Source: Methanococcoides sp. (GTDB lineage: Archaea > Halobacteriota > Methanosarcinia > Methanosarcinales > Methanosarcinaceae). Taken from it: a DNA stretch of 64,000 nucleotides. This document shows, piece after piece, positions 5,556 to 46,051 of this stretch. The DNA lies in the NCBI GenBank assembly GCA_021108275.1, contig JAIORD010000033.1, positions 1 to 64,000 on the forward strand, given 5' to 3'. A model generated the notes under the pieces. The model was not told the DNA's origin. It made no database searches and worked only from the letters and a program-made list of their open reading frames with translations. Positions within the stretch are counted from its first letter, which is position 1. Each line of letters begins with the position of its first letter. Made by a program: the position numbers and the translations under genes.

Positions 5556-6005
5556 TTAGAACCTTACTTCGAGGTCAGCAATCATCTGCTGAGTTGCAAC
5601 ATCGACAATCTTGATAACTCCTGTTGTGCTTGTAGCCTTGAGATCTTGGTTTGAACCACTAGTATTCTCAGCGCTGTCAAGGAAGTAAATAGAGTTTTCT
5701 TTAATGAGGTATAGCGAATCACCAGCTTCGAATCTAGTTTCATCGATAGTGTCCATTGTTGCACCAAGAGTTACGGGAGTGCCATCAAAGGTAATCCTTG
5801 AGCTAGTTGTATTAACTACTACTGCATCCCCGCCCTGATGCTCAATTACGGCACCATTTACGGAATCGATTGTTGCTGCACTTGCCTTAACGCTTGCCTG
5901 TGGTGCAACTTCAGGTGCTCCCATTCCAAACACGAATGCTGCAATGACAGCAGCAAGGATAACAGTGATAGCGACCATCAGGATAACACCGATGACCGGA
6001 GACAT
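5556..6005 (-). CDS. Type IV pilin body lacking its leader (displaced copy)
   Basis: 149 aa beginning directly at the pilin hydrophobic domain (SPVIGVILMVAITVILAAVIA), followed by a variable C-terminal body. Archaeal pilins of the Pilin_N family (formerly DUF1628) normally have a short charged class III leader cut by a prepilin peptidase. Here the leader is missing: the reading frame meets foreign sequence at 6005, and ATG replaces the GTG (Val) codon found in the intact copy at 15.5 kb. No ribosome site or pilin-type leader precedes it, so it is probably silent. Its first 84 bp are identical to bases 15426-15509. Joining it to the leader at 15510-15540 would restore a complete pilin in frame. 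Confidence 0.8.
   Translation of the reverse strand: MSPVIGVILMVAITVILAAVIAAFVFGMGAPEVAPQASVKASAATIDSVNGAVIEHQGGDAVVVNTTSSRITFDGTPVTLGATMDTIDETRFEAGDSLYLIKENSIYFLDSAENTSGSNQDLKATSTTGVIKIVDVATQQMIADLEVRF
5921..6004. repeat. Left 84-bp direct repeat, putative attL
   Basis: This stretch is identical base for base to 15426-15509. It encodes the conserved N-terminal helix of a type IV pilin. Identity stops abruptly at 6005 on the element side, while homology fades gradually on the pilin-body side. An integrase gene starts 92 bp inside the element. The true crossover could be anywhere within the 84 bp. Confidence 0.75.
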
Positions 6006-6095
6006 AACGATTCTTAAGCCTTATTTTGCTTATTAAAGGTAGCTTTGACCATATTTTCCCACATAATCACCTTAAAATAAATTAAAGGTGAAAAC

Positions 6096-6941
6096 ATGGC
6101 AAAGGAAGCAATGAAAAATTTAAGTGCATATGTAACGTATGAAGATTTTTTGAAACTCGAAAAAGCTGCTAAAGAGTATGAGGAAAGTACAGTATTAAAA
6201 AAAGCAAGAGCTGGAGAGTATTCATTATTAATTCGGATACTATTTTTCACAGGTGCACGGATTGCAGAAGTGGTCGGTAATCCAAGAAGAGTTTTTACAC
6301 AATGCTTATTCCCAACTAACAATAAAAGGAAAGGAAACTGTCCAAAATGGAGTAAGGTAAGAGATGATGCCGTTTGTATCGATGCTGAATGTAAATATTT
6401 TGCAACCTATGTTCAGAAAGAGCATCATGGAATACGTGTTAAAGATATAAGCAAAGATAGACTTATAGCGGTCTACGGAAAAAATGTAAAATCAAATGAA
6501 TTGAAACCAAGAACGGTCATAATCGACAGCAAAACATTTGAACTAATCCAAGAGCATATCAAGAAACATGGTTTAAAACCAAATGATAAAATAATAAATC
6601 TCAATGAAAATGGTTCAAAAATATTCATTGAAAAACTCAGGAAACGAGTAGATATGCCATGGATATCGGCTCATAAATTCAGGCATGGTCACGCTATTTA
6701 CTGCATCCAAGGGGGAATGGACATAAGAACCCTTCAACAACAATTAGGGCATGCAGATTTGGGAACTACAGCAGTATATTTACAGTTCGCTGTTGATGAT
6801 AGAAAAAAGGTCTACGATAAAGTTTTCTGTTCAAAACCAAATCATATAAAGGTTCAATGTCCGAGCTGTGGATTTTCTTTTAGATTGAAGAAAACCCGAG
6901 AAATTGAATTTGAAGATAAACTCCGAACAATTTTTGATTAA
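6096..6941 (+). CDS. Tyrosine recombinase/integrase next to attL
   Basis: 281 aa. Phage-integrase catalytic domain: Arg I in TGARIAEV (R55), H-x-x-R in SAHKFRHGHAIY, and LGHADLGTTAVYLQF carrying the second His and the likely nucleophilic Tyr. Two cysteine-containing segments are unusual: a CPKW...CIDAEC insert after the first Arg, and a CPSCGF half zinc ribbon near the C-terminus. The start ATG follows GGTGA. Its position, transcribed inward from the edge of the pilin att repeat, makes it the best candidate for the enzyme that recombines the pilin sequence. Confidence 0.88.
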   Translation: MAKEAMKNLSAYVTYEDFLKLEKAAKEYEESTVLKKARAGEYSLLIRILFFTGARIAEVVGNPRRVFTQCLFPTNNKRKGNCPKWSKVRDDAVCIDAECKYFATYVQKEHHGIRVKDISKDRLIAVYGKNVKSNELKPRTVIIDSKTFELIQEHIKKHGLKPNDKIINLNENGSKIFIEKLRKRVDMPWISAHKFRHGHAIYCIQGGMDIRTLQQQLGHADLGTTAVYLQFAVDDRKKVYDKVFCSKPNHIKVQCPSCGFSFRLKKTREIEFEDKLRTIFD

Positions 6942-7004
6942 ATGAGGGATTATGATGTTGTTCCAGAAAAGATTTTAAAAGATACCCCACGTATCTTTTT
7001 TATA

Positions 7005-8186
7005 TCATTTGTCTTGCGGCAATATCCGAACTTGTCGTTGTCGATTATTTATAGGTCGTTTGTTCGACCTATTAAATCCACTATAGTTGCTATTAGTTCG
7101 ATTTAGTTTATTTACAACTTTATTATATTCAGTTAATGTAAGCTCTTTTATATCGTAACTTTCAGCTTTAGGATTGTTCGGATTACGTGTATAATAGAAT
7201 CCTACACCATTCGAAGTTGGTGAACAGGCTAAATACAATGGTTTATTTTTAGTCATTTCAGCAAATTCAACATATTCAGCATCTTTGTTTTTGACATAAC
7301 TTCCAGCAGAAGTTTTAGACATTAATCTAATCTGACCTACTTTAAAGACCATATCTTTCATGTTTTTATGAACAAGCATACGGACAAAACGATGCGTAAT
7401 TTGGTCAAAATCATCTTCCGATACTTCCTGTCCAACTTTTTCTACAAGAACAGAATGATATTTTACATCAGTAGATTTTGTAGATTTACCAGATGACGAA
7501 GTGACTGTTTTCTCAACTATTGTGAATTTACCTTTTTCTTGTTGCAGGTTATGTTCCAAATCTGATTTTTCATCTTTTAATTTTTCAATCGTGGAATCCT
7601 TTTCTGCAAGTTGTCTTTTAAGTTCAACAACATTGAGTTTGTCTGTTGTTTCATCAGATTTATCATCCGCAGGTCTGTCGTTCTCATCTCCCAAATCACG
7701 ACCAACTGGCTTTTCAACGACTTGTATACTATGACTGCCATCACCTTCGGTATTTACAAAATGATGTTGTATATACTGATTCTCCCATTCTTCATGTTCT
7801 TCTCTTTGTTTACGTCTATAATATAGGGGGTCATTTATCGCTTTTTGAACACCATTATCATTAAGAATATATCTGTATGAACCTCGTTTCCCGATACGGT
7901 TCACGTACTGTAATTCTGGCTTGATGATTCTCCTACCATTTTCTGTTACAGCACCATTCGCATATTTTGACAGATTACTTTTGAAAGTGGTTAATTTTCC
8001 TTTATAATCACACAAATTATAAAGCTGATTTAATTTTAATCCATTCGGGTGATTCAATGAAACTGTCAAAATTTCTTGCTTTGCTTCACAATCCCTATCA
8101 AAATATTTGAGAGATTTTTTACTCTCTTCTTTCTCTTGATTTTCAATTCCCACGCATATTTCATTCCCCATTCTTTCATTAAACAT
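7005..8186 (-). CDS. HTH and coiled-coil protein of unknown function
   Basis: 393 aa. The N-terminal third (about residues 35-120) looks like a winged-helix region, with text such as RIGKRGSYRYILNDNGVQ, the beta-wing pattern of DNA-binding domains. A coiled coil follows at roughly 190-225 (ELKRQLAEKDSTIEKLKDEK). The C-terminal 170 residues are a mixed-charge domain I do not recognise. The start is supported by GGTGA upstream. A plausible role is control or maintenance of the element, but nothing in the sequence proves it. Confidence 0.7.
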   Translation of the reverse strand: MFNERMGNEICVGIENQEKEESKKSLKYFDRDCEAKQEILTVSLNHPNGLKLNQLYNLCDYKGKLTTFKSNLSKYANGAVTENGRRIIKPELQYVNRIGKRGSYRYILNDNGVQKAINDPLYYRRKQREEHEEWENQYIQHHFVNTEGDGSHSIQVVEKPVGRDLGDENDRPADDKSDETTDKLNVVELKRQLAEKDSTIEKLKDEKSDLEHNLQQEKGKFTIVEKTVTSSSGKSTKSTDVKYHSVLVEKVGQEVSEDDFDQITHRFVRMLVHKNMKDMVFKVGQIRLMSKTSAGSYVKNKDAEYVEFAEMTKNKPLYLACSPTSNGVGFYYTRNPNNPKAESYDIKELTLTEYNKVVNKLNRTNSNYSGFNRSNKRPINNRQRQVRILPQDK

Positions 8187-8488
8187 AATTTTTCACCTTC
8201 ATTTTCACCTTTGTTTTTACTCGTAAGTTTGTCCTTGACCATGAGTTGCCGTCTATGTACAGCAACTCCTATGTGTAGGGGTAAATCAATCCAAATTTCG
8301 AAAAAGTAGGACAGATTGCATCTCAATTTCAAAGAACAAAACTACTATCAGTAGTCAAATTATAGACCATAGACTTTTTATTCAGCTTCTTTGACATTTG
8401 GCATCGGTATATCCCTCAACTATTACACCAAATTTCCAATATTTTTATATAATTATTATAATGGAAATAGTAATTTCAATGGTTGAAG
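8187..8488. other. Intergenic stretch between HTH protein and second integrase
   Basis: About 300 bp with no gene I can support. It holds the ribosome site and probable promoter of the minus-strand HTH gene and, at its right end, the 21-bp direct repeat. Confidence 0.6.
8423..8443. repeat. 21-bp direct repeat, copy A
   Basis: TTACACCAAATTTCCAATATT is repeated exactly at 8489-8509, where it forms the last codons and stop of the integrase gene. This copy lies 46 bp beyond that gene's end. Confidence 0.7.
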
Positions 8489-9109
8489 TTACACCAAATT
8501 TCCAATATTATCATTAATTTTTTCCATCTCTCTATTAATGTCTGCCACAGATACATCCAGATACTTCATAGTGGTGGATAGGTTCTTGTGTCGTAGATAT
8601 TTACTCACAAATGGTAGCGGTAGCCCTCTATCCAAAAGATGTTCCGCCCGTGACCTTCTCATGGTATGCGTACCAAATTTTCGATTTAAACCAACATCTG
8701 CACCTATACTATTGATTACCTTATAGACGTGAGAACGATGTACTTGCTTGGACTTTTGCGAATACATTATATAATCAGATGGTTTCAAATCAGAATGTTC
8801 GCAGTATCGCTTTATTCTCTTTAAAATACGAATGTCACATGGTGCTTTTTGAAGTTCAGAAATGTCCTTTCCCTTTCCACCCCACACATCAATGCATTGG
8901 TTCTCGAAATTCAAATCGAGAACTCGCACATTTCGGGCTTCACTAACCCGCAATGCTGGTACGTATAACAAAATGAGCCACATTTCCCATTTTTCTGAAA
9001 TATCAGGCTTATTCAACATTAGTTCAAGTTCTTCTTCACGTAGCCATTGTTTGCTATATCTTGTAAGTGGTTTATACTTTTTAGCAACAGATTTTTTATT
9101 ATATTTCAT
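8489..9109 (-). CDS. Tyrosine recombinase (XerC/D-like), second of the element
   Basis: 206 aa, short for the family (core-binding domain reduced). Catalytic residues visible: Arg in ALRVSEARNV, Lys in WGGKGKD, H-x-x-R in GTHTMRRSRAEH, His in YLRHKNLSTT and Tyr in MKYLDVS. It is a clear homologue of the integrase at 45123-45698 in the other island; they share long blocks such as YVPALRVSEA and RIKRYCEHSDLKPS/RIKRYAEHSDLKPS. Its last seven codons and stop are duplicated as a direct repeat just downstream. Confidence 0.88.
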   Translation of the reverse strand: MKYNKKSVAKKYKPLTRYSKQWLREEELELMLNKPDISEKWEMWLILLYVPALRVSEARNVRVLDLNFENQCIDVWGGKGKDISELQKAPCDIRILKRIKRYCEHSDLKPSDYIMYSQKSKQVHRSHVYKVINSIGADVGLNRKFGTHTMRRSRAEHLLDRGLPLPFVSKYLRHKNLSTTMKYLDVSVADINREMEKINDNIGNLV

Positions 9110-9433
9110 AATATATAAAAAGCAACAGATGTTTATAAAGGTTGCCTTTTCACTGTAAACTGTTTGAGTGCATCATCTGCCGATGGTGAAAATGAAAATT
9201 GACAAAACGATTATTTATTGATAAGAATACATTGTAATCCTTATGTTGCATTGTATAACTGTTATACAAAATAATGAAACATTGTAGATTTAACAATAAT
9301 TATTGTCATAGAAGCGATTTAAGAGTATTTTTGAGTTAATGATATAAATTCATCAGTTTGCAAATCAAATCGCAAATTCGGGCGGATTTTCACGATGTGA
9401 TGGAGAAGATAAAGGATATAGATTTGGTCTGAC
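9110..9433. other. Intergenic stretch, no supported gene
   Basis: About 320 AT-rich bases. A short open stretch before 9431 (ending in a TGA) reads like the end of a helical peptide but lacks a start codon with a ribosome site. I see nothing else. Confidence 0.4.
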
Positions 9434-9643
9434 GTGGAAAAATGCGTCAGATTTCAATCTTTTTTTGTGATTGGTGTAAATTGTGTCAATGATTGTTTTG
9501 ATGAGTGTAAAAGGCTTCTTTTGGGTTTATCAACAGGATATGTAGAAGCCGCCCGAACAATGCAGATACCAACATCGACCATGTACAAATATCGTGATAT
9601 TTGGATGAAACAGGATAAATTGGAGAAGGTTAAAAGCATCTAA
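9434..9643 (+). CDS. Small HTH-like ORF, doubtful
   Basis: 69 aa with a GTG start. The C-terminal part (GYVEAARTMQIPTSTMYKYRD) reads like a helix-turn-helix of the transposase or resolvase type. No ribosome site is convincing, and the first 25 residues are not protein-like. It may be a fragment of a larger gene cut by the neighbouring inverted-repeat element. Confidence 0.3.
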   Translation: MEKCVRFQSFFVIGVNCVNDCFDECKRLLLGLSTGYVEAARTMQIPTSTMYKYRDIWMKQDKLEKVKSI

Positions 9644-9647
9644 AATA

Positions 9648-9779
9648 GGCTCTGTAGAAATCCTCGATATTCGGACACTAATCCAATTTGAAAAGATTAT
9701 GGGATGTGTTGCATGATGTTGGAATATAATTCCAATTCCAGTCTATATATGTTGATTTTGATAGGTTTTCTACAGAGCC
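9648..9779. mobile_element. MITE-like element of 132 bp
   Basis: It is bounded by near-perfect inverted repeats: GGCTCTGTAGAAATCC at the left and GGTTTTCTACAGAGCC at the right (15 of 16 pair). There is no coding capacity. The terminal sequence resembles ends of insertion sequences, so a transposase elsewhere in the genome may mobilise it. No clear target duplication is visible. Confidence 0.65.
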
Positions 9780-9833
9780 AAAAAATGAAAACATTTATAT
9801 AATTTTACAATAAAGTGAGTCTTGGTTTTTCAT

Positions 9834-10019
9834 ATGACAACAAAAAACAATAATAAATCTGTAAAATGTCCAACCTGTAAAGGAAAAGGGGCTGTTAAGT
9901 GTCAGGTATGTTCAGGAAAAGGAAAAATTGAAGACATAATAAACACTTATACATGTAAAGATTGTAAAGGAACTGGTTTACTAAAATGCCCCAACTGCAA
10001 GGGAAAAGGTCTAGTTTAA
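9834..10019 (+). CDS. DnaJ-type cysteine-rich zinc-binding protein
   Basis: 61 aa built of CxxCxGxG units (CPTCKGKG, CQVCSGKG, CKDCKGTG, CPNCKGKG), the pattern of the DnaJ central zinc domain, here without J-domain or C-terminal domain. The ATG at 9834 is preferred to an upstream TTG. An AT-rich TATA-like box (ACATTTATATAATT) lies about 30 bp upstream, so the transcript may be nearly leaderless. A role in protein-protein contacts or redox is possible; nothing more can be said. Confidence 0.75.
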   Translation: MTTKNNNKSVKCPTCKGKGAVKCQVCSGKGKIEDIINTYTCKDCKGTGLLKCPNCKGKGLV

Positions 10020-10031
10020 AAAAGGAATAAT

Positions 10032-10136
10032 ATGTCAGAAGTTGATAAAATAATTGAAGCGTTCCGATTTATAGCTATACTTATGATTTGTGGCTATGTT
10101 TTAGTCAAAATAGCAGAAACATTTGGATATCTCTGA
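10032..10136 (+). CDS. Small single-pass membrane protein
   Basis: 34 aa: a short charged N-terminus (MSEVDKIIEAF), then a hydrophobic helix (FIAILMICGYVLVKIA). It starts 12 bp after the DnaJ-like gene with GGAATA before the ATG, and the next gene begins 12 bp later, so the three are probably co-transcribed. Function unknown. Confidence 0.45.
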   Translation: MSEVDKIIEAFRFIAILMICGYVLVKIAETFGYL

Positions 10137-10148
10137 ACATAGATTATT

Positions 10149-10745
10149 ATGGATTTAAACAACCTCTTATATCTTTTTGTATTTGTATTACTTATCCTTG
10201 TAGCTTCACGTTTTATGAAAGGTGAAGAAAGACAAATACTACCTCATATAAACACCAATTCACCTAAAGCAACAGCTAATTCTGACACTTTTAAACATCC
10301 CAAAAAAGTATCAAAAATCGATATTGCTTTCGATAACATAATTGATTTTATTCAAAATGAAGTTTCATTTCGTTATGGTAAAAATAAAAAAGAAAAAGAT
10401 TACCAGCAAGACTTAGAAGGGATGTTGCTTGTTCTGAAAGAAAGATATGGGTATATGTCTAATTATGAATCAGTTAATGGTAAACATAGAGTTGATTTCA
10501 TAGTCAATGAAAATATTGGAATTGAAATGAAAGTTAATCGTGGTGGAACACAAGTCCAAAAGGAATTATATAACCAAATAACAGATTACTCAAATTTTTG
10601 TCCTAAAATGATTGGATTGGTTGTGAATATTACAGACAAAAATCCTGAAATCTTACGAAACGAAATCCTGAATAAACTGAAATATCAACATGCAATCCAT
10701 GAAAATGATTATGAAGTAATTGTTTTAGATGTAAACAAGAGCTAA
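10149..10745 (+). CDS. Membrane-anchored PD-(D/E)XK-like nuclease
   Basis: 198 aa. An N-terminal transmembrane helix (residues 3-22) is followed by a linker and a soluble domain. That domain shows HRVDFIVNENIGIEMKVNRGG, which fits the D-(x)n-ExK core of restriction-like nucleases, preceded by a helix with an acidic residue (KDYQQDLEGML). The fold assignment rests on motif reading only. A membrane-tethered nuclease in a mobile element would fit defence or DNA uptake control, but this is inference. Confidence 0.6.
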   Translation: MDLNNLLYLFVFVLLILVASRFMKGEERQILPHINTNSPKATANSDTFKHPKKVSKIDIAFDNIIDFIQNEVSFRYGKNKKEKDYQQDLEGMLLVLKERYGYMSNYESVNGKHRVDFIVNENIGIEMKVNRGGTQVQKELYNQITDYSNFCPKMIGLVVNITDKNPEILRNEILNKLKYQHAIHENDYEVIVLDVNKS

Positions 10746-10756
10746 TTGGTTTTTGT

Positions 10757-10905
10757 TCAATTTTGATACCCTACAATTTTCGCCCAGCCTTCCAATCTCT
10801 CCCTTACATGAACATTCAATGTAAAGGGCTTATCATCCTTTGCATTCTGCTTCATGTAATGCAATGTACCCTTCGAAAATCCCATTTTCTTCAATTCGGC
10901 ATCAG
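10757..10905 (-). pseudogene. Relic of casposase (Cas1) C-terminal HTH domain
   Basis: Reading the minus strand gives KKMGFSKGTLHYMKQNA, then KPFTLNVHVRERLEGWAK and a stop. This matches the C-terminal HTH tail of the casposase at 52500-53720 (KKMGFSKGTLHYMKQNA...FSLNTHVKERVEMWEGC). Only about 49 codons remain and a stop lies just upstream in frame. It marks a former casposon inside the pilin-integrated element. A similar relic lies at 57098-57225. Confidence 0.8.
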
Positions 10906-10985
10906 TTCCAAACTAATAAAACTATTTTTATTAATTTTACAATAATTACAATAAGTTTATATCTATGAACATCATGTTTTAAATT

Positions 10986-11411
10986 ATGACTTCAATATAT
11001 AATTCAAAACAAAATACAAGAGGAGTTACAACGCCTAAAAGATTGTTCGGAAATCTTGAAGGTGCATTCCCTTTGAATGGTACAATTTATGATAAATTAT
11101 CTGGAAAATCTGGTGTATATGTAATTACTGTGGTAGGATGGGAATGGAGAATTCCATATCCTTGTAGTAAGAGTAATATCATATATGTTGGTCAATCAGA
11201 AGATATTGGAAAAAGGCTCAGGCAACACAAATCTGCTGGAATGAATCATGAATTGAAGGTATATGCAGATGGTTGTTCTTTAAATGTCTATTATAGAAGT
11301 GTCTTGAATGTTTCGGAACTGAAAATGTATGAAAGCCAAATGATTCTCCAATTTGAGAATAAATATGGTGGAATACCTATGTGTAATAATCAAACACCGA
11401 ATGTTGATTGA
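10986..11411 (+). CDS. GIY-YIG nuclease domain protein
   Basis: 141 aa. The GIY-YIG fold is visible as GVYVIT (GIY part), NIIYVGQSEDIGKRLRQH (YIG part with the Arg), and YESQMILQFENKYGG with the catalytic Glu region. There are about 45 N-terminal residues before the domain. No DNA-binding module is seen, so this could be a small homing- or defence-type nuclease. The start ATG is close to an AT-rich promoter, probably a leaderless transcript. Confidence 0.8.
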   Translation: MTSIYNSKQNTRGVTTPKRLFGNLEGAFPLNGTIYDKLSGKSGVYVITVVGWEWRIPYPCSKSNIIYVGQSEDIGKRLRQHKSAGMNHELKVYADGCSLNVYYRSVLNVSELKMYESQMILQFENKYGGIPMCNNQTPNVD

Positions 11412-11599
11412 TGGGATGTGAGGAAGAAAGATTATGGGGAATGTCTCATGATAAATTCCCATATTTCCAAAAGAAAGGTTTCTTTGGATTTCTACTAAAA
11501 CGATAGATACATCAAGATTGATAATAAATGGTTTAAATCTGCATTATGAGATACATTGAAAAAGCTATGCTATATCTCATAATAGACGATTCATTGAGA

Positions 11600-14176
11600 T
11601 TATTTTACAATTCTTACAATTGGTTCTGGATTCGCTTTCGTTTCTGCTTTTGCTTTTGCTTCGTCTTTTAATATGATTTCATATATAGAATCAATATTTA
11701 CAATCCCAACTGTCAGTTCTTTGAAATCATCGACAAACTCACCATTTACCAATACTTTTGAATTTTTGCCAAAAGGCATCTCTATTAATTTATCTGATGA
11801 TTTGTATTGCAGGTTAATCTTTGTATTTTTTGGGTACGATTCAAAGGATTTGTTTTTGCCCTTCAAAATAAACCCAATGTCTTTCAATATTTTTTCATAA
11901 ACGAGTTTTGCAACATTCGCTTTGCTTTCATTTATAAGCATCCATAAACGATAGGATGAACCAATTTTTTCGATTACGTATGGCAAATTGATACTATCAA
12001 AGGATAATTTTAAAGCACTTATGTTATATTCAGAAGGTGTTTCGAACATAACGCAATTCACTTTATTTTCAGGCATCAAGAATTTGAAACTGAGATTGTG
12101 GTCACCATCTATATGTTGTGCAAGTAATTTGTCCGTCAAAATCATATCTTTTTTAGACGATTTTTTTCTTACGCTAACATCATTATCGCCAATAATTAAA
12201 TCAAGCAAAGAACTCTTCGAATTTTTTTCAAATTCGTTATTCTCTATTCTCCCATAGTAATAGGTATTATATGGGTGTTTGAATGGTAATGAATTTAAAT
12301 AATTTTTACACAGTATACTTCTTATAAGAGTTTGTTTCCAATCTACTTCTCGTCTGTGCTTTGGTCTTGAAATTTCTTCACCATTTATGCGAACGTTTAT
12401 ATATTTGCTTTGACCCTGCCCATCGGGGTTTATAATTTCAACTCCCCTATCAATTCCCCATGTCACAATGGCTAATATGTCTCTTTCAACACAGCCAAGA
12501 GCAAAGACAATTGATTTTTCTTTTCCGTTTGGGTCTTTTACACGGCTTAATGCTTGAAAAACTTCAATATGCATCATTTCTTCTCGTGCTACCTGAGCTT
12601 TTTCGGCAGAATCACGCATTGGGTCACATGCATGGGCTGGAAGGTGTCCTAATCCTATGAGTATGCAAACTCTTTTTTCGGAATCGACACCCATAACGTC
12701 AGGTGCTCGGTAATAGGTCACTTGTGGAGTGTATTTGGGTTTTTTACCATCTTCAGAATAATTTTCCCAATAATCTTTCCAATAAATATATTCACTAATG
12801 TTTCTGCAAATGATGAGACAATTATTAGAACCATGTAAGTTCATAATTTGTTTGCAACGAGTTTGTATTTCAATTCTACAATTATAAGTAGAATTTCTAC
12901 CAAATGCACTATATGATTTTGTATCGCACAATATTGTCAATTTGTCATTGGTATTTAATGGGTCTCCAAAATTATATTTATGAATATCCGTTCCAGATTT
13001 GAACAATCCACTATAATTAAAATATGTAAATGTTGCTGATGTCACTATTATTTTACTTTTTTTATCAAATTGCTTCGTTTTAAGGAACTCAGATATTACA
13101 GACAAATACTCTTCATTGACAGTACAAATATCTGTCAGTGTGTCGTATGTGTTCTTATTTTTTATTTTTTGGGAATGGAGTGTAATTTTATCTGTTTTCA
13201 CAATATTGATTATGTTAATTATGAAAGAGATATCTTCAGTTGATATTTTTAAACTTTTATGACAATCAATCAAACTAATGAGTTCTTGCAAAATCTTACT
13301 TGATTTTTTCCCAATTTCAGTTTCGCTTATTTCATATTTGTCAGTTTTACGATTATAATATGGTTTCGTATTTCTGTCTATAAAAGCAATGTTTTTCTTT
13401 GGATTAGGAATGGTGCAAGATTGATTTTTACTATATGATGAATACTCTTTATCATCTACGTGTGTATTCAACAATTTCTTTTGTTCCAATACGTCTTTGT
13501 TTTTGATTATTTGAATATAATTGAAAATGAGTTTGCGGAGATTTTTATATTCACCTTTGCTTTTATTTAATTTTCTCATTATATATTGAGCATAGCCGAA
13601 ATCGTGGTTATTGGTCATGTCTAATGACATGACTTCATCAAATGCTAAATTATGGGCTTCATCAAAAATGACAATATCAGATGCAAACAGTTTATCTAAA
13701 ATTTCTGATGCATTTGATTCTGGATACAGTTTAGCCGTTTTCATAGTTGCTACTAATTTATGATAGGTAATAGCAATGCCATCATAATCTTCATCTCTAA
13801 ATATTTTTGTTACAGAACATTTATCATAATGCTTGCACTCATCACCGCAACCATTTGGCAATGGTAAATATGGAAGACAACTCAAATATTCATTCTCTTC
13901 AATTTTTTCTTTATTAAGTATACACTCAAAATTGCTTGGAATATGAATAATATTTGGATTTTCTTTTTGAGATAATCTTCTTACATTTCCCAATATTGTA
14001 TCTTTGATTATTTTGTTTGTAGGTACAACAATTAAAAATTTTAGATTCCGTAATAATGATGCGAGGCATAAAGATGTGGTTGCACCTGCTCGTGTTGTTT
14101 TGAATAGTTGAATTTCGTTATGGTTACTATCAATTACACCTAAAGCTCTTTGCAACCTTATATCTGTGGCACTCAT
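11600..14176 (-). CDS. DEAH-box helicase fused to a primase-like domain
   Basis: About 858 aa. The N-terminal half is superfamily 2-like: a nucleotide-binding loop KTTRAGATTS, the segment LKFLIVVPTNKII, a cysteine cluster (CLPYLPLPNGCGDECKHYDKC) placed like the Fe-S/Zn insert of XPD-type helicases, and the DEAH box IVIFDEAHNLAFDE. The C-terminal ~180 residues resemble the archaeo-eukaryotic primase of TOTE-type systems: a stretch like the inactive counterpart of the DxD strand (VMFETPS), SYRLWMLINE, a YPKNTKINLQ segment and LIEMPFGKNSKVLVNGEFVDD. The acidic DxD pair seems lost, so polymerase activity is doubtful. ATG at 14176 follows GGTGAGT. Confidence 0.65.
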   Translation of the reverse strand: MSATDIRLQRALGVIDSNHNEIQLFKTTRAGATTSLCLASLLRNLKFLIVVPTNKIIKDTILGNVRRLSQKENPNIIHIPSNFECILNKEKIEENEYLSCLPYLPLPNGCGDECKHYDKCSVTKIFRDEDYDGIAITYHKLVATMKTAKLYPESNASEILDKLFASDIVIFDEAHNLAFDEVMSLDMTNNHDFGYAQYIMRKLNKSKGEYKNLRKLIFNYIQIIKNKDVLEQKKLLNTHVDDKEYSSYSKNQSCTIPNPKKNIAFIDRNTKPYYNRKTDKYEISETEIGKKSSKILQELISLIDCHKSLKISTEDISFIINIINIVKTDKITLHSQKIKNKNTYDTLTDICTVNEEYLSVISEFLKTKQFDKKSKIIVTSATFTYFNYSGLFKSGTDIHKYNFGDPLNTNDKLTILCDTKSYSAFGRNSTYNCRIEIQTRCKQIMNLHGSNNCLIICRNISEYIYWKDYWENYSEDGKKPKYTPQVTYYRAPDVMGVDSEKRVCILIGLGHLPAHACDPMRDSAEKAQVAREEMMHIEVFQALSRVKDPNGKEKSIVFALGCVERDILAIVTWGIDRGVEIINPDGQGQSKYINVRINGEEISRPKHRREVDWKQTLIRSILCKNYLNSLPFKHPYNTYYYGRIENNEFEKNSKSSLLDLIIGDNDVSVRKKSSKKDMILTDKLLAQHIDGDHNLSFKFLMPENKVNCVMFETPSEYNISALKLSFDSINLPYVIEKIGSSYRLWMLINESKANVAKLVYEKILKDIGFILKGKNKSFESYPKNTKINLQYKSSDKLIEMPFGKNSKVLVNGEFVDDFKELTVGIVNIDSIYEIILKDEAKAKAETKANPEPIVRIVK

Positions 14177-14304
14177 TTGCACCACTCACCGTTTACATCG
14201 CTTACAATATATTTATATATAATTATGTAGATTTTATTATTGAACATGTTTTCTCCCAGAGGTGTGGATTTTGCAAAGGGGTTCACACACCTGCTATTTT
14301 ATCC

Positions 14305-14469
14305 TTAAATTTTCTCCTCGAAAAAATCGTTAAGTATGTAATTTACAAAAATTGACCTTGGAATAGTCTTTCTGTAATCATCGAGTTTTTCAATTACTGC
14401 TCTATCCAGTGAAAATGCAACTACTGGCTTGCCACGCTGTTCATTTTTAGTTTCGCTATTTTGTTTCAT
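14305..14469 (-). CDS. Small ribbon-helix-helix-type regulator
   Basis: 54 aa. A basic N-terminal strand (GKPVVAFSLDRAVIEKLDDYRKTI) is followed by PRSIFVNYILNDFFEE, the strand-helix-helix layout of small archaeal MetJ/Arc-like regulators. GGAGACC lies ahead of the ATG. It sits about 130 bp upstream of the helicase gene on the same strand and might repress it or the element's integrases. Confidence 0.6.
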   Translation of the reverse strand: MKQNSETKNEQRGKPVVAFSLDRAVIEKLDDYRKTIPRSIFVNYILNDFFEEKI

Positions 14470-15016
14470 TTTAATGGTCTCCTAATTTATTATTACGTTG
14501 TAATATAATTTTATAAATATACCTCCGTGCATATAAACATTCCGATTGAACTGCAACGCAGCATAGCGAAATTGAATACGGCTCAAACAAACACCATTTG
14601 CTAAAAAAGTGAACACTGTTTGGTTGTTCAATTTTAATTTAAGGACAATAAATAACATTCTGAAAAAAATAAAGAACTTTGCATCGGAAATTGTCGATGA
14701 CGGCTTGAATACGTCTTATTTAATCCTGCATTATAAATACTTTCATTTCAATAAAACTTTTTTATTTAATTTTTGAACATAGCATAATGCCCCACCAATA
14801 TTTGAAATCTATATCAGATTCCAAATACACAAAACAATTTATTTATTAGAAAAGCAGATATTCTTATTAGCACAGTTCAACTAAGATTGTTGTGCGGAAA
14901 ATCGAGGTGAATTACGGGGTTAATAATCAAAGTATCTTACAACATAGCGTCTGTTGATGCTATGGAATACGCAAAATAAGGTCAAAAGCAACACCTGAAG
15001 GTCGCTGGAGTTGAAT
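14470..15016. other. Non-coding AT-rich stretch in the integrated element
   Basis: About 550 bp without a supportable gene. A weak inverted repeat lies near 14627-14650 (GAACACTGTTTGGTTGTTC). The right end leads into the pilin terminator. No tRNA or obvious structured RNA was seen. Confidence 0.5.
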
Positions 15017-15031
15017 TTAAAAAAAAAGAAT

Positions 15032-15047
15032 GATGCAGTCATGCACC
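15032..15047 (-). terminator. Terminator hairpin of right pilin gene
   Basis: GATGCAGTCATGCACC forms an imperfect stem-loop 16 bp past the pilin stop; a run of T follows on the minus strand. It is homologous to the hairpin at 5524-5539, showing that the two pilin copies share their 3' flank as well. Confidence 0.6.
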
Positions 15048-15063
15048 ATGTTCTTTAAAGGTT

Positions 15064-15540
15064 TTAGAATCTGATATCCATATCAGCAATCATCTGCTGA
15101 GTTGAAACATCGATGACTGTTACTTCGACAATGTCACCAGTGCCTCCAATTGCTGCAGTGAAATTCGTTACATCAGATGGTGAGCTTGAAACGAAATAAT
15201 CTGTACCTTTAAGTCCAAGATAAAGACGTTCTCCAGCACTAAACTCATTATCAACAATTGCATAGCTCACTCCAGTTCCACCAACAAGGAATTTGGTGTT
15301 TGATGATGAAAGTACAATCCCGTCTCCACCTTGGTGCTCAAGCATAACAATAGCAAATTCACCAGCACTAGTTGCTTCAGATGCACTTGCCCTTACACTT
15401 GCCTGTGGTGCAACATCAGGTGGTGCCATTCCAAACACGAATGCTGCAATGACAGCAGCAAGGATAACAGTGATAGCGACCATCAGGATAACACCGATGA
15501 CCGGAGACACTGCATCTTCATTTCTATTCATTTTAAACAT
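15064..15540 (-). CDS. Type IV pilin with class III signal peptide (intact)
   Basis: 158 aa from the ATG at 15540, which follows GGAGGAATAATAAA; an in-frame upstream ATG at 15573 lacks a ribosome site. Leader MFKMNRNEDA, then VSPVIGVILMVAITVILAA: a class III signal cut by the prepilin peptidase just before the hydrophobic helix. The body is about 110 residues and beta-rich, differing from the left copy. The promoter and leader are outside the 84-bp repeat and the body is inside the element, so this gene is a hybrid of host 5' end and element-borne body. It would be exported and assembled into a surface filament. Confidence 0.88.
   Translation of the reverse strand: MFKMNRNEDAVSPVIGVILMVAITVILAAVIAAFVFGMAPPDVAPQASVRASASEATSAGEFAIVMLEHQGGDGIVLSSSNTKFLVGGTGVSYAIVDNEFSAGERLYLGLKGTDYFVSSSPSDVTNFTAAIGGTGDIVEVTVIDVSTQQMIADMDIRF
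15426..15509. repeat. Right 84-bp direct repeat, putative attR
   Basis: Identical to 5921-6004. To its right lie only the pilin leader codons and ribosome site; to its left lies the element-borne pilin body. Confidence 0.75.
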
Positions 15541-15569
15541 TTTATTATTCCTCCATAAATTGTTACTAA

Positions 15570-15776
15570 TCAATTAGAATCAATTTGTTGCTTTTTCTGC
15601 ACTACTTTTTCAAGCTTGCGAGTCCACATCTCATCATTCATTTCAGTGTACTCACACTCAAGATAATGCTGAACCGCTATGCTCAAAGCTTCCTTTGTAG
15701 ACGGTTCATTTGACTTTTTCTTGAGTTCTTCAAGCTGGTCCTCAGTAAGTACAGTTTGAGCATGTACTATTTTCAT
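15570..15776 (-). CDS. Small conserved methanogen protein (DUF5371-like)
   Basis: 68 aa, MKIVHAQTVLTEDQLEELKKKS...STKEALSIAVQHYLE, a pattern that looks like a ribbon-helix-helix fold with a helical C-terminus. I recall similar proteins in Methanosarcinaceae under DUF5371. It lies 29 bp upstream of the pilin start on the same strand, so it may be co-transcribed with the pilin and could act as its regulator. Confidence 0.7.
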   Translation of the reverse strand: MKIVHAQTVLTEDQLEELKKKSNEPSTKEALSIAVQHYLECEYTEMNDEMWTRKLEKVVQKKQQIDSN

Positions 15777-43603: not shown

Positions 43604-43640
43604 TATAGCCCAAGATATGAAACAATACTTTTACACGTTT

Positions 43641-43725
43641 GCGGGAGTTGCCCAGCCTGGCCAAAGGCGTTAGGTTCAGAGCCTAATCTCGTAGGAGTCC
43701 GTGGGTTCGAATCCCATCTCCCGCA
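43641..43725 (+). tRNA. tRNA-Leu (CAG)
   Basis: 85 nt. Acceptor stem GCGGGAG/CTCCCGC, D arm GCCCAGCCTGGCCAAAGGC, anticodon stem TTAGG/CCTAA around loop TTCAGAG (anticodon CAG), a long class II variable arm, T arm with GTTCGAAT, and discriminator A. Adjacent to the integrase island, for which tRNA-Leu is the likely docking gene. Confidence 0.93.
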
Positions 43726-43965
43726 TCAATACTTATTCTTTTTAAACTGTATCGGTTTAGTGTTGGGTGTGCCCTGCGTTCCAACCCTCGTATGAGTGAT
43801 TGGTGTTCGACCTGACCAAAGGGGTTCAAGAGTAGTCAAGTTGCAAGGATCAATTGATAGAGTCCATAGAAAGGGGAGGAGGAAGTAAAAACCCCCAATA
43901 TAATCTAATTAGCTACATCAGAACAAACAAAACTTTTCTAAAAATTGAGTGAAGGAAAGAATAGT

Positions 43966-45122: not shown

Positions 45123-45698
45123 TCATACAATCACTTCCACATTATCACCAATCTTAGTTAATTCGTTCTGAAGATCTGCAACGCTTACATTAAGATACTT
45201 CATAGTTGTTGCTAAATTCTTATGCCGTAAATATCGGCTTACGTGGGTAATGGGTAAACCCTGATCTAAAAGATGTTCAGCTCTGGACCTTCTGAACGTA
45301 TGCGTTCCTATCTTCTTATCTATCCCTGCCTTTGCACATAACTCGTTTACAACACGGTAAACTTGCATAGAGCTTGCCTGTGGCTTGCATTGACTGAACA
45401 TGATATAAGAAGAAGGTTTAAGGTCTGAATGTTCAGCATATCGCTTAATTCGCTTAATTATACTGCCTGGACAATGGACTTTTGATAACTCGCTGCTATC
45501 ATGACCTTTACCGCCCCAAACGTCTATGGTTTCAGTTTCTAAATGTAAATCCCTTACTTTGACATTCAATGCTTCAGATACTCTCAAAGCAGGGACATAT
45601 AGCAACAAAACCCAAATCTCGTATTTCTCTTTCAGGTTAGGCAATTGCATGATCCTTTTAATTTCATCTGGTGTAAGCCAGTTTTTAGCATACTTCAT
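45123..45698 (-). CDS. Tyrosine recombinase/integrase of the tRNA-Leu island
   Basis: 191 aa from the ATG at 45698 (MKYAKNWLTPDEIKR). Catalytic residues: Arg in PALRVSEALNV, Lys in GGKGHD, HxxR in GTHTFRRSRAEH, His in YLRHKNLATT, Tyr in MKYLNVS. Very similar to the integrase at 8489-9109. It is the likely enzyme that placed an element at the nearby tRNA-Leu. Confidence 0.9.
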   Translation of the reverse strand: MKYAKNWLTPDEIKRIMQLPNLKEKYEIWVLLLYVPALRVSEALNVKVRDLHLETETIDVWGGKGHDSSELSKVHCPGSIIKRIKRYAEHSDLKPSSYIMFSQCKPQASSMQVYRVVNELCAKAGIDKKIGTHTFRRSRAEHLLDQGLPITHVSRYLRHKNLATTMKYLNVSVADLQNELTKIGDNVEVIV

Positions 45699-46051
45699 TA
45701 TACTCAACTCTACATAATTAAGTAGTTCAATTATTACCATGAGTAATAAAGATAGAACTTGTATAAATGTATAACGGTTTTAAAAATACAAACACATTAT
45801 GAATTGGTGATATGTGCCGACTGTGTGCGATATGTAGAAAAAGACAATTAAAACGTATAAAATAAAGTTATAAAAGGTATCTTTTCAAACGTTAATGAAA
45901 TAATAAAATATGTTGAAGGATGGTGATAATATTAAATTGAATGGACCCCCCTTTCCCCCATTTTACCATTTGTATCACCTGATCCACATAATTAACAGAG
46001 GTATAAGCAACTAGAAAAAATACTACTCTTCTAAAAATTTGATTATATATA
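45699..46051. other. Intergenic region left of casposon
   Basis: About 350 bp, very AT-rich apart from a C-rich run near 45945-45960. It holds the integrase promoter and the 16-bp repeat; no gene is supportable. Confidence 0.5.
45875..45890. repeat. 16-bp direct repeat, left copy
   Basis: AGGTATCTTTTCAAAC, found again at 57239-57254. The two copies enclose both casposons. Confidence 0.45.

Follow-up and report, generated by a model that had tools for sequence, protein, structure and literature searches.

Helicases joined to AEP-type primases occur in mobile elements. In the PrimPol-PV1 supergroup, for instance, AEPs are fused to helicases and nearly always reside in mobile elements, and the acids of motifs I and III are nearly universally conserved (PMC5862659). 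A DID-to-LIL mutant of PolpTN2 is inactive, and some AEP families have distinct motif II patterns (PMC5862659). In a further fusion, GP55 of phage 1706 combines an SF3 helicase with an active AEP (PMC12205980). The CAPP prim-pol of Marinitoga (PDB 7nqd, 7nqf and 7p9j) can be regarded as an active enzyme because, by the titles of its entries, it was solved in complexes with dGTP and primer. AEP-like domains also figure in TOTE systems, an acronym for TPR, OB, TBP and Effector (PMC12458937).

Here we describe REP, a helicase–pseudo-primase encoded in a 64,000-nucleotide stretch of Methanococcoides DNA (the window), which resembles each of several known systems in part. It shares a helicase fusion with the PrimPol-PV1 AEPs of mobile elements, but there the acids of motifs I and III are nearly always kept, and the available portion of their description does not mention XPD (PMC5862659). 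GP55 differs from REP in architecture, as far as the accessible part of its account goes (PMC12205980). The AEP fold of CAPP is common to the C-terminal domain of REP, yet the solved prim-pol domain carries no XPD-type helicase. Conversely, the Fe-S helicases of the XPD/DinG type (8rev, 6fwr and CasDinG, 8e2w) have the helicase fold and four cysteines seen in REP, which differs from them in lacking the Walker A lysine and in carrying a fused AEP domain. Judged by titles and the openings of abstracts, we found no description in the literature of REP or of a pseudo-AEP helicase of this kind.

REP is encoded on the minus strand at 11600..14185 of the window, in a genome of 2.67 Mb, and comprises 861 residues from a GTG start. 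A prior sequence-only reading had located the frame correctly but began it at 14176, which is an in-frame ATG at residue 4 (giving 858 residues); the GTG lies at 14185. The same reading proposed helicase motifs and a cysteine cluster in the N-terminal half, and both are upheld. REP matches Pfam ResIII weakly (E 4e-4), and residues 113-388 match the NCBIfam YoaA model (E 3e-6). An AlphaFold2 model, built from an input of 13 sequences from the window and public collections, has a mean pLDDT of 80.5 and a pTM of 0.74. Foldseek ranks structures of XPD and DinG as its closest matches (8rev_A, E 2.8e-14; 9ii8_A; 6fwr_A, E 2.8e-13). VIA-align also ranks a DinG structure first (6fws_A, Z 23.2, rmsd 8.4, 492 residues aligned), with DEAD-box proteins less than one Z unit behind (Z 22.8, rmsd 3.5, 323 residues). 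By its predicted fold, then, the REP helicase is of the XPD/DinG type, and Foldseek and VIA-align place this region at residues 8-612 (12350..14164, minus strand).

Several features of this region are invariant in all 19 homologues that hold the Walker A stretch: the four cysteines between motifs I and II (Cys88, Cys113, Cys117 and Cys123; 13817..13924, minus strand), the D, E and H of the D-E-x-H box (DEAH in REP, residues 175-178; 13652..13663, minus strand), and the Gln and Arg of motif VI. By analogy with XPD and DinG, the cysteines are probable ligands of an Fe-S cluster. The Walker A region itself (KTTRAGATT, residues 29-37; 14075..14101, minus strand) is without its usual lysine, which is found in none of the 19 homologues; the position holds Ala in nine, Cys in five, Phe in three, and Gly and Met in one each. 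Around it, Lys29, Gly34 and Thr37 are invariant (19/19) and Arg32 is present in 18 of the 19. Because the lysine is missing, ATP-driven unwinding cannot be assumed, and its loss across the family calls into question the use of NTPs by REP-type helicases.

The likeness to XPD and DinG, together with the YoaA match, could suggest that REP is a repair helicase derived from the host and carried as cargo, with no part in replication of an element. We regard this as very improbable: the nearest kin found are genes of elements and proviruses, and only 17 of the 185 genomes searched in the order yielded a homologue. A profile search of the phylum found one in 18 of 392 genomes.

The C-terminal half of REP has the RRM-like core fold of AEPs, with the domain spanning residues 680-833 (11687..12148, minus strand) by Pfam, Foldseek, hhalign and alignment. 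Residues 668-820 match Pfam AEP-TOTE (E 9.3e-6) at 25.8 bits, slightly below the curated cut-off of 27; when the profile is run on the whole genome, REP is the sole match, at 28.6 bits and above the cut-off. Foldseek pairs the C-terminal part of the model with the CAPP prim-pol (7nqd_A, E 4.3e-6, TM 0.68 on the target, rmsd 3.8; 7nqf_B, E 6.6e-7) and also with a viral TOTE-type primase. Relatives with an equally degenerate domain behave similarly, five of six matching AEP-TOTE at E<0.1 (best 9e-8), and hhalign of the degenerate C-termini alone against the AEPs of three other proteins gives a probability of 95.7% (E 9.1e-9), as against 0.3% for an unrelated partner family used as a negative control. 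The profile–profile comparison and structure prediction thus confirm the primase-like domain that had been suspected from the sequence.

A PDB profile search with active and degenerate rows combined finds the CAPP prim-pol (E 1.2e-18); with six degenerate rows only it returns no AEP, listing malate dehydrogenase at an E of at least 0.29. Queried with REP alone, PHROGs and phmmer against the PDB give no match. VIA-align of the model listed helicase matches only, over residues 1-629, so that it is Foldseek, hhalign and Pfam that identify the AEP.

What distinguishes this AEP domain is the state of its active site. In an alignment of 27 proteins, 20 rows are of the active type, and D-x-D and the motif II His are, by our reading, retained in every one of these 20 AEP-bearing homologues. 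The remaining seven (REP, L028, L029, L030, L032, L036 and L043), all from Methanosarcinaceae, are degenerate. At the motif I position of REP, where relatives have D-x-D, stands E715-T-P (12035..12043, minus strand): VMFETPS aligns with ICFDIDAH, which substantiates the missing acid pair of the earlier reading and, with it, the fusion of a helicase to a primase domain of AEP/TOTE-like kind that has lost its catalytic residues. The motif II His is also absent, its place taken by R746 (11948..11950, minus strand; SSYRLW in REP vs HSYHVW), although loss of this His alone proves nothing, because some AEP families have distinct motif II patterns (PMC5862659). A motif III-like acid is kept in REP (SFESYP vs CEVFPKQ, a motif assigned by eye). 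In addition, the degenerate rows have a shorter connecting loop and lack the PriL-like C-terminal extension.

Could such a domain still polymerise through rearranged residues, for instance with Glu715 acting alongside the motif III-like acid? By our reading of the alignment, every one of the seven degenerate rows has E or D at the first motif I position and four have the motif III-like acid, as would suit this idea; L043 even retains E-x-D at motif I, and for that reason may not be fully inactive. Nevertheless, the second motif I acid is gone from six of the seven, the motif II His has become Arg or Lys in all seven, and the PriL-like C-terminal domain of the active forms is also missing. Residual activity of this sort seems to us quite unlikely, and the AEP domain of REP is, to judge from its residues, very probably catalytically dead.

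Six of the seven degenerate genes have a reading frame open from end to end. Compared pairwise (21 pairs), the degenerate proteins show an average identity of 34.7% for the helicase, 33.6% for the AEP domain and 22.3% for the linker; the corresponding values for seven active forms are 58.0%, 55.1% and 37.1%. A domain in free decay should lag behind the helicase, and since the AEP domain does not, it is not decaying freely. Its conservation to the same degree as the helicase argues that its retention serves some purpose besides polymerisation. Simple decay of the domain was considered and is ruled out by this equal conservation of the two regions, and the earlier description of the protein as decayed does not hold, with the degenerate AEP conserved across deep relatives.

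Trees built from helicase columns only (five proteins without a helicase, L079, L080, L083, L084 and L088, were left out) place REP with L028, L029, L030 and L032 in one clade (100/100) and L036 with L043 in a separate one (90/86). The active Methanosarcinaceae and viral-contig rows form a further clade (100/99), except for the divergent L046. The trees favour two losses but do not reject one common origin for the degenerate rows, which has an AU p of 0.094 with 22 rows and 0.098 with 19 (the long-branch L043, L046 and L061 dropped). As far as helicase sequences can tell, one or two old losses of the active site are required. An eighth homologue, L031, is the closest to REP (62% over 347 residues) and was scored neither as degenerate nor as active because its contig stops short of the AEP region. 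Two gene breaks were observed: the degenerate gene of L032 (9757-12522, G092) is split by a stop, and the active-type gene of L039 (8216-12141, G176) lies in two pieces with another ORF between them.

The active forms point to where REP came from. The homologue loci comprise 17 from the public genome scan and three from a scan of viral contigs, which had given nothing useful when searched with REP alone. Provirus modules of varying completeness surround several of the active copies (L034, L037/38, L040, L041, L042 and L045), with genes for a UvsX-like ATPase, for a ParB-methylase and for subunits of a terminase; no such terminase cluster is found in the degenerate loci. Two active forms that were scanned match AEP-TOTE at E 1e-19 to 5e-25, and the C-terminal extension of the L040 copy (residues 853-933) matches PriL (E 2.5e-4). 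The helicase-primases of head-tailed proviruses in Methanosarcinaceae, such as L040, L034 and L045, have the helicase, the odd Walker A, the four cysteines and the AEP position of REP. They keep D-x-D, the His and the PriL-like C-terminal domain, several beside terminase genes, whereas REP has none of these. REP would then derive from an active helicase-primase comprising helicase, AEP and PriL-like domains, as found in tailed proviruses of the same archaea.

The REP gene itself lies in a 9.5-kb integrated element with an integrase and presumed att repeats. GC content is 0.32 at 6005-15380, compared with 0.43 and 0.44 in the left and right flanks, respectively. An exact 84-nt repeat, the presumed att, occurs at 5921..6004 and again at 15426..15509, each copy within a pilin gene. 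The left pilin gene (5556..6005, minus strand; Pilin_N E 2.3e-20) is severed from its signal-peptide codons, with in-frame stops just upstream; the right one (15064..15573, minus strand; Pilin_N E 1.6e-22) has a signal peptide and the chromosomal upstream region. A tyrosine integrase, intL (6096..6941, plus strand; Phage_integrase E 2.7e-14), marks the left end and begins 91 nt from the left repeat. A second tyrosine recombinase, intR, follows at 8489..9109 (minus strand; Phage_integrase E 5.3e-27), and a domain scan recognises a small zinc-binding protein with CxxC repeats at 9822..10019 (plus strand). Three related genomes (G091, G096 and G097) show an empty site, with one pilin gene between the same chromosomal flanks. 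Of six less closely related genomes in the genus, four have matches to two pilin stretches at the site, as read by eye, and insertion between tandem pilin genes is a possible, less likely, alternative to judge from the sequences. Scans of the element found no replication origin or iterons, and a promoter scan, built for the bacterial promoter type, gave nothing useful. As to extrachromosomal copies, a search of 72,556 plasmids and 50,697 phage records yields nothing that matches REP.

A recurrent companion of REP within such elements is C2, a 393-residue protein (7005..8186, minus strand) without a family match, whose conserved N-terminal block is winged-helix-like and middle coiled-coil-like as read by eye; its structure model (mean pLDDT 37.5) was not used. 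In the window, L031, L032, L036 and L043, C2 and the helicase are encoded no more than about 4 kb apart; the distance is 13-14 kb in G114 and G142, and C2 is absent from G135. It occurs in 22 of 184 genomes, some of them without a REP-type helicase, and in none of the stretches fetched for ten active loci (L033, L034, L035, L037/38, L039-L042, L045 and L046); a search of C2 against the plasmid collection gave no match. Related elements show that the place of REP can be filled by other proteins. At L159, intR, the zinc-binding protein and a PD-(D/E)xK-like nuclease appear in the order and orientation of the window, followed by a different protein, K5, in the REP slot. The C2 elements L149, L151 and L161 likewise carry K5, L150 a D5/DUF5906 protein and L163 a DUF927 protein. 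By eye, the K5 helicase-like family (L149 8298-10784, L151 8026-9903, L159 10772-12328, L161 5448-7496) has a regular Walker A, GxGK[TS], and a cysteine cluster; three members scanned against Pfam gave no strong match.

This swapping of the slot is our main argument for reading REP as the element's replicative helicase. With moderate confidence, we propose that REP serves in this capacity in a 9.5-kb integrated plasmid-like element whose priming is left to the host. After excision REP, probably with C2, would open and unwind the element's DNA at the element's origin; the pseudo-primase would make no primers, but may hold single-stranded DNA or recruit the host primase and polymerase. A broader proposal, which we advance tentatively, is that of a replicative Fe-S helicase family in which the fused primase has become a conserved noncatalytic module, with Lys29 standing in for the Walker lysine, and acts either to recruit host primase or as a decoy for proviruses.

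Decoy function deserves separate consideration. Replication of related tailed proviruses might be blocked or hijacked if a dead helicase-primase made by the small element bound to their origin or replisome. REP is homologous to the provirus helicase-primases and has lost the primase centre, and G114 and G142 each have both forms, encoded on separate contigs. Against this, identity to the provirus forms is only about 30%, and the two forms coincide in just two of the seven genomes with a scored degenerate copy. Moreover, the helicase part is conserved too, and other helicases occupy the same slot in related elements. We consider a decoy or regulatory role unlikely, and retain replication of the element as the preferred reading.

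The neighbourhood of REP had invited yet another interpretation: that of a TOTE-like defence system, dispersed or in decay, whose helicase-primase-like member cooperates with neighbouring nucleases. Pfam AEP-TOTE is indeed the best model for the AEP domain, and two nuclease-like genes adjoin REP, one encoding a PD-(D/E)xK-like protein (10149..10745, plus strand; PDDEXK_3 E 0.0011, below the cut-off) and the other a GIY-YIG protein (10986..11411, plus strand; GIY-YIG E 6.4e-6). PADLOC adds weak matches to type IV DinG for REP and to PDC-S14 and PDC-M01B for neighbours. The expected partners are missing, however: no TPR, OB or TBP gene is found among the neighbours scanned in the window or among the ten neighbour genes scanned at L028, L029, L030, L032, L036 and L043, and Pfam detects no nuclease domain within REP. 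Nor are the nucleases linked to the helicase. The GIY-YIG gene is present in seven of 184 genomes and adjoins the helicase only in the window; the PD-DExK gene is present in 13 of 184, lies less than 7 kb from a degenerate helicase only in the window and G135, and is about 20 kb away in G114. Both genes are cargo rather than regular neighbours. The synteny comparison proposed with the sequence-only reading thus shows no regular co-occurrence, an outcome that the reading itself had named as refuting it, and neither the suggested nuclease role nor the kinship to TOTE conflict systems is supported. With active relatives seated in proviruses beside terminases as well, we hold a TOTE-like defence system to be highly unlikely. 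The locus offers a caution: a helicase, an AEP domain and a nearby nuclease need not signify defence. Homologues of the GIY-YIG gene in G097 (C31) and G093 (C9) carry in-frame stops, a sign that it is dispensable cargo.

The REP system bears on the use of host enzymes by small elements to prime their replication, and the coexistence of active and inactivated helicase-primases in related archaeal elements and proviruses makes AEP roles beyond polymerisation accessible to direct study.

The integration site is itself of interest, as we found no description, judged by titles and the openings of abstracts, of an integrase directed at the pilin genes of archaea. The intL family adjoins a pilin gene in eight of the nine loci examined (the window and eight fetched), the exception being L151; the pilin-side loci include L149, L150 and L152-L156, with L153 identified by BLAST only. 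These integrases sit at pilin codons for SPVIGVILMVAITVILAA. In the window, L152, L155 and L156 the pilin on the integrase side has stops where the signal peptide belongs; a signal peptide that seems intact is present in L149 and L154. The pattern suggests that type IV pilin genes are the integration targets of these elements, which may thereby exchange one pilin body for another downstream of the native promoter.

The second recombinase may have a site of its own. The 3' end of intR (8489-8523) is repeated just downstream at 8423-8457 (35 nt, 83%), and a copy of a recombinase 3' end also lies near the L028 homologue (L028 12232-13606); the repeat is possibly intR's own recombination site. Elsewhere in the window, a second low-GC stretch (42000-64000) starts near a tRNA-Leu gene (43640-43727) and carries a homologue of intR (45123-45701, 59%), and is probably another integrated element.
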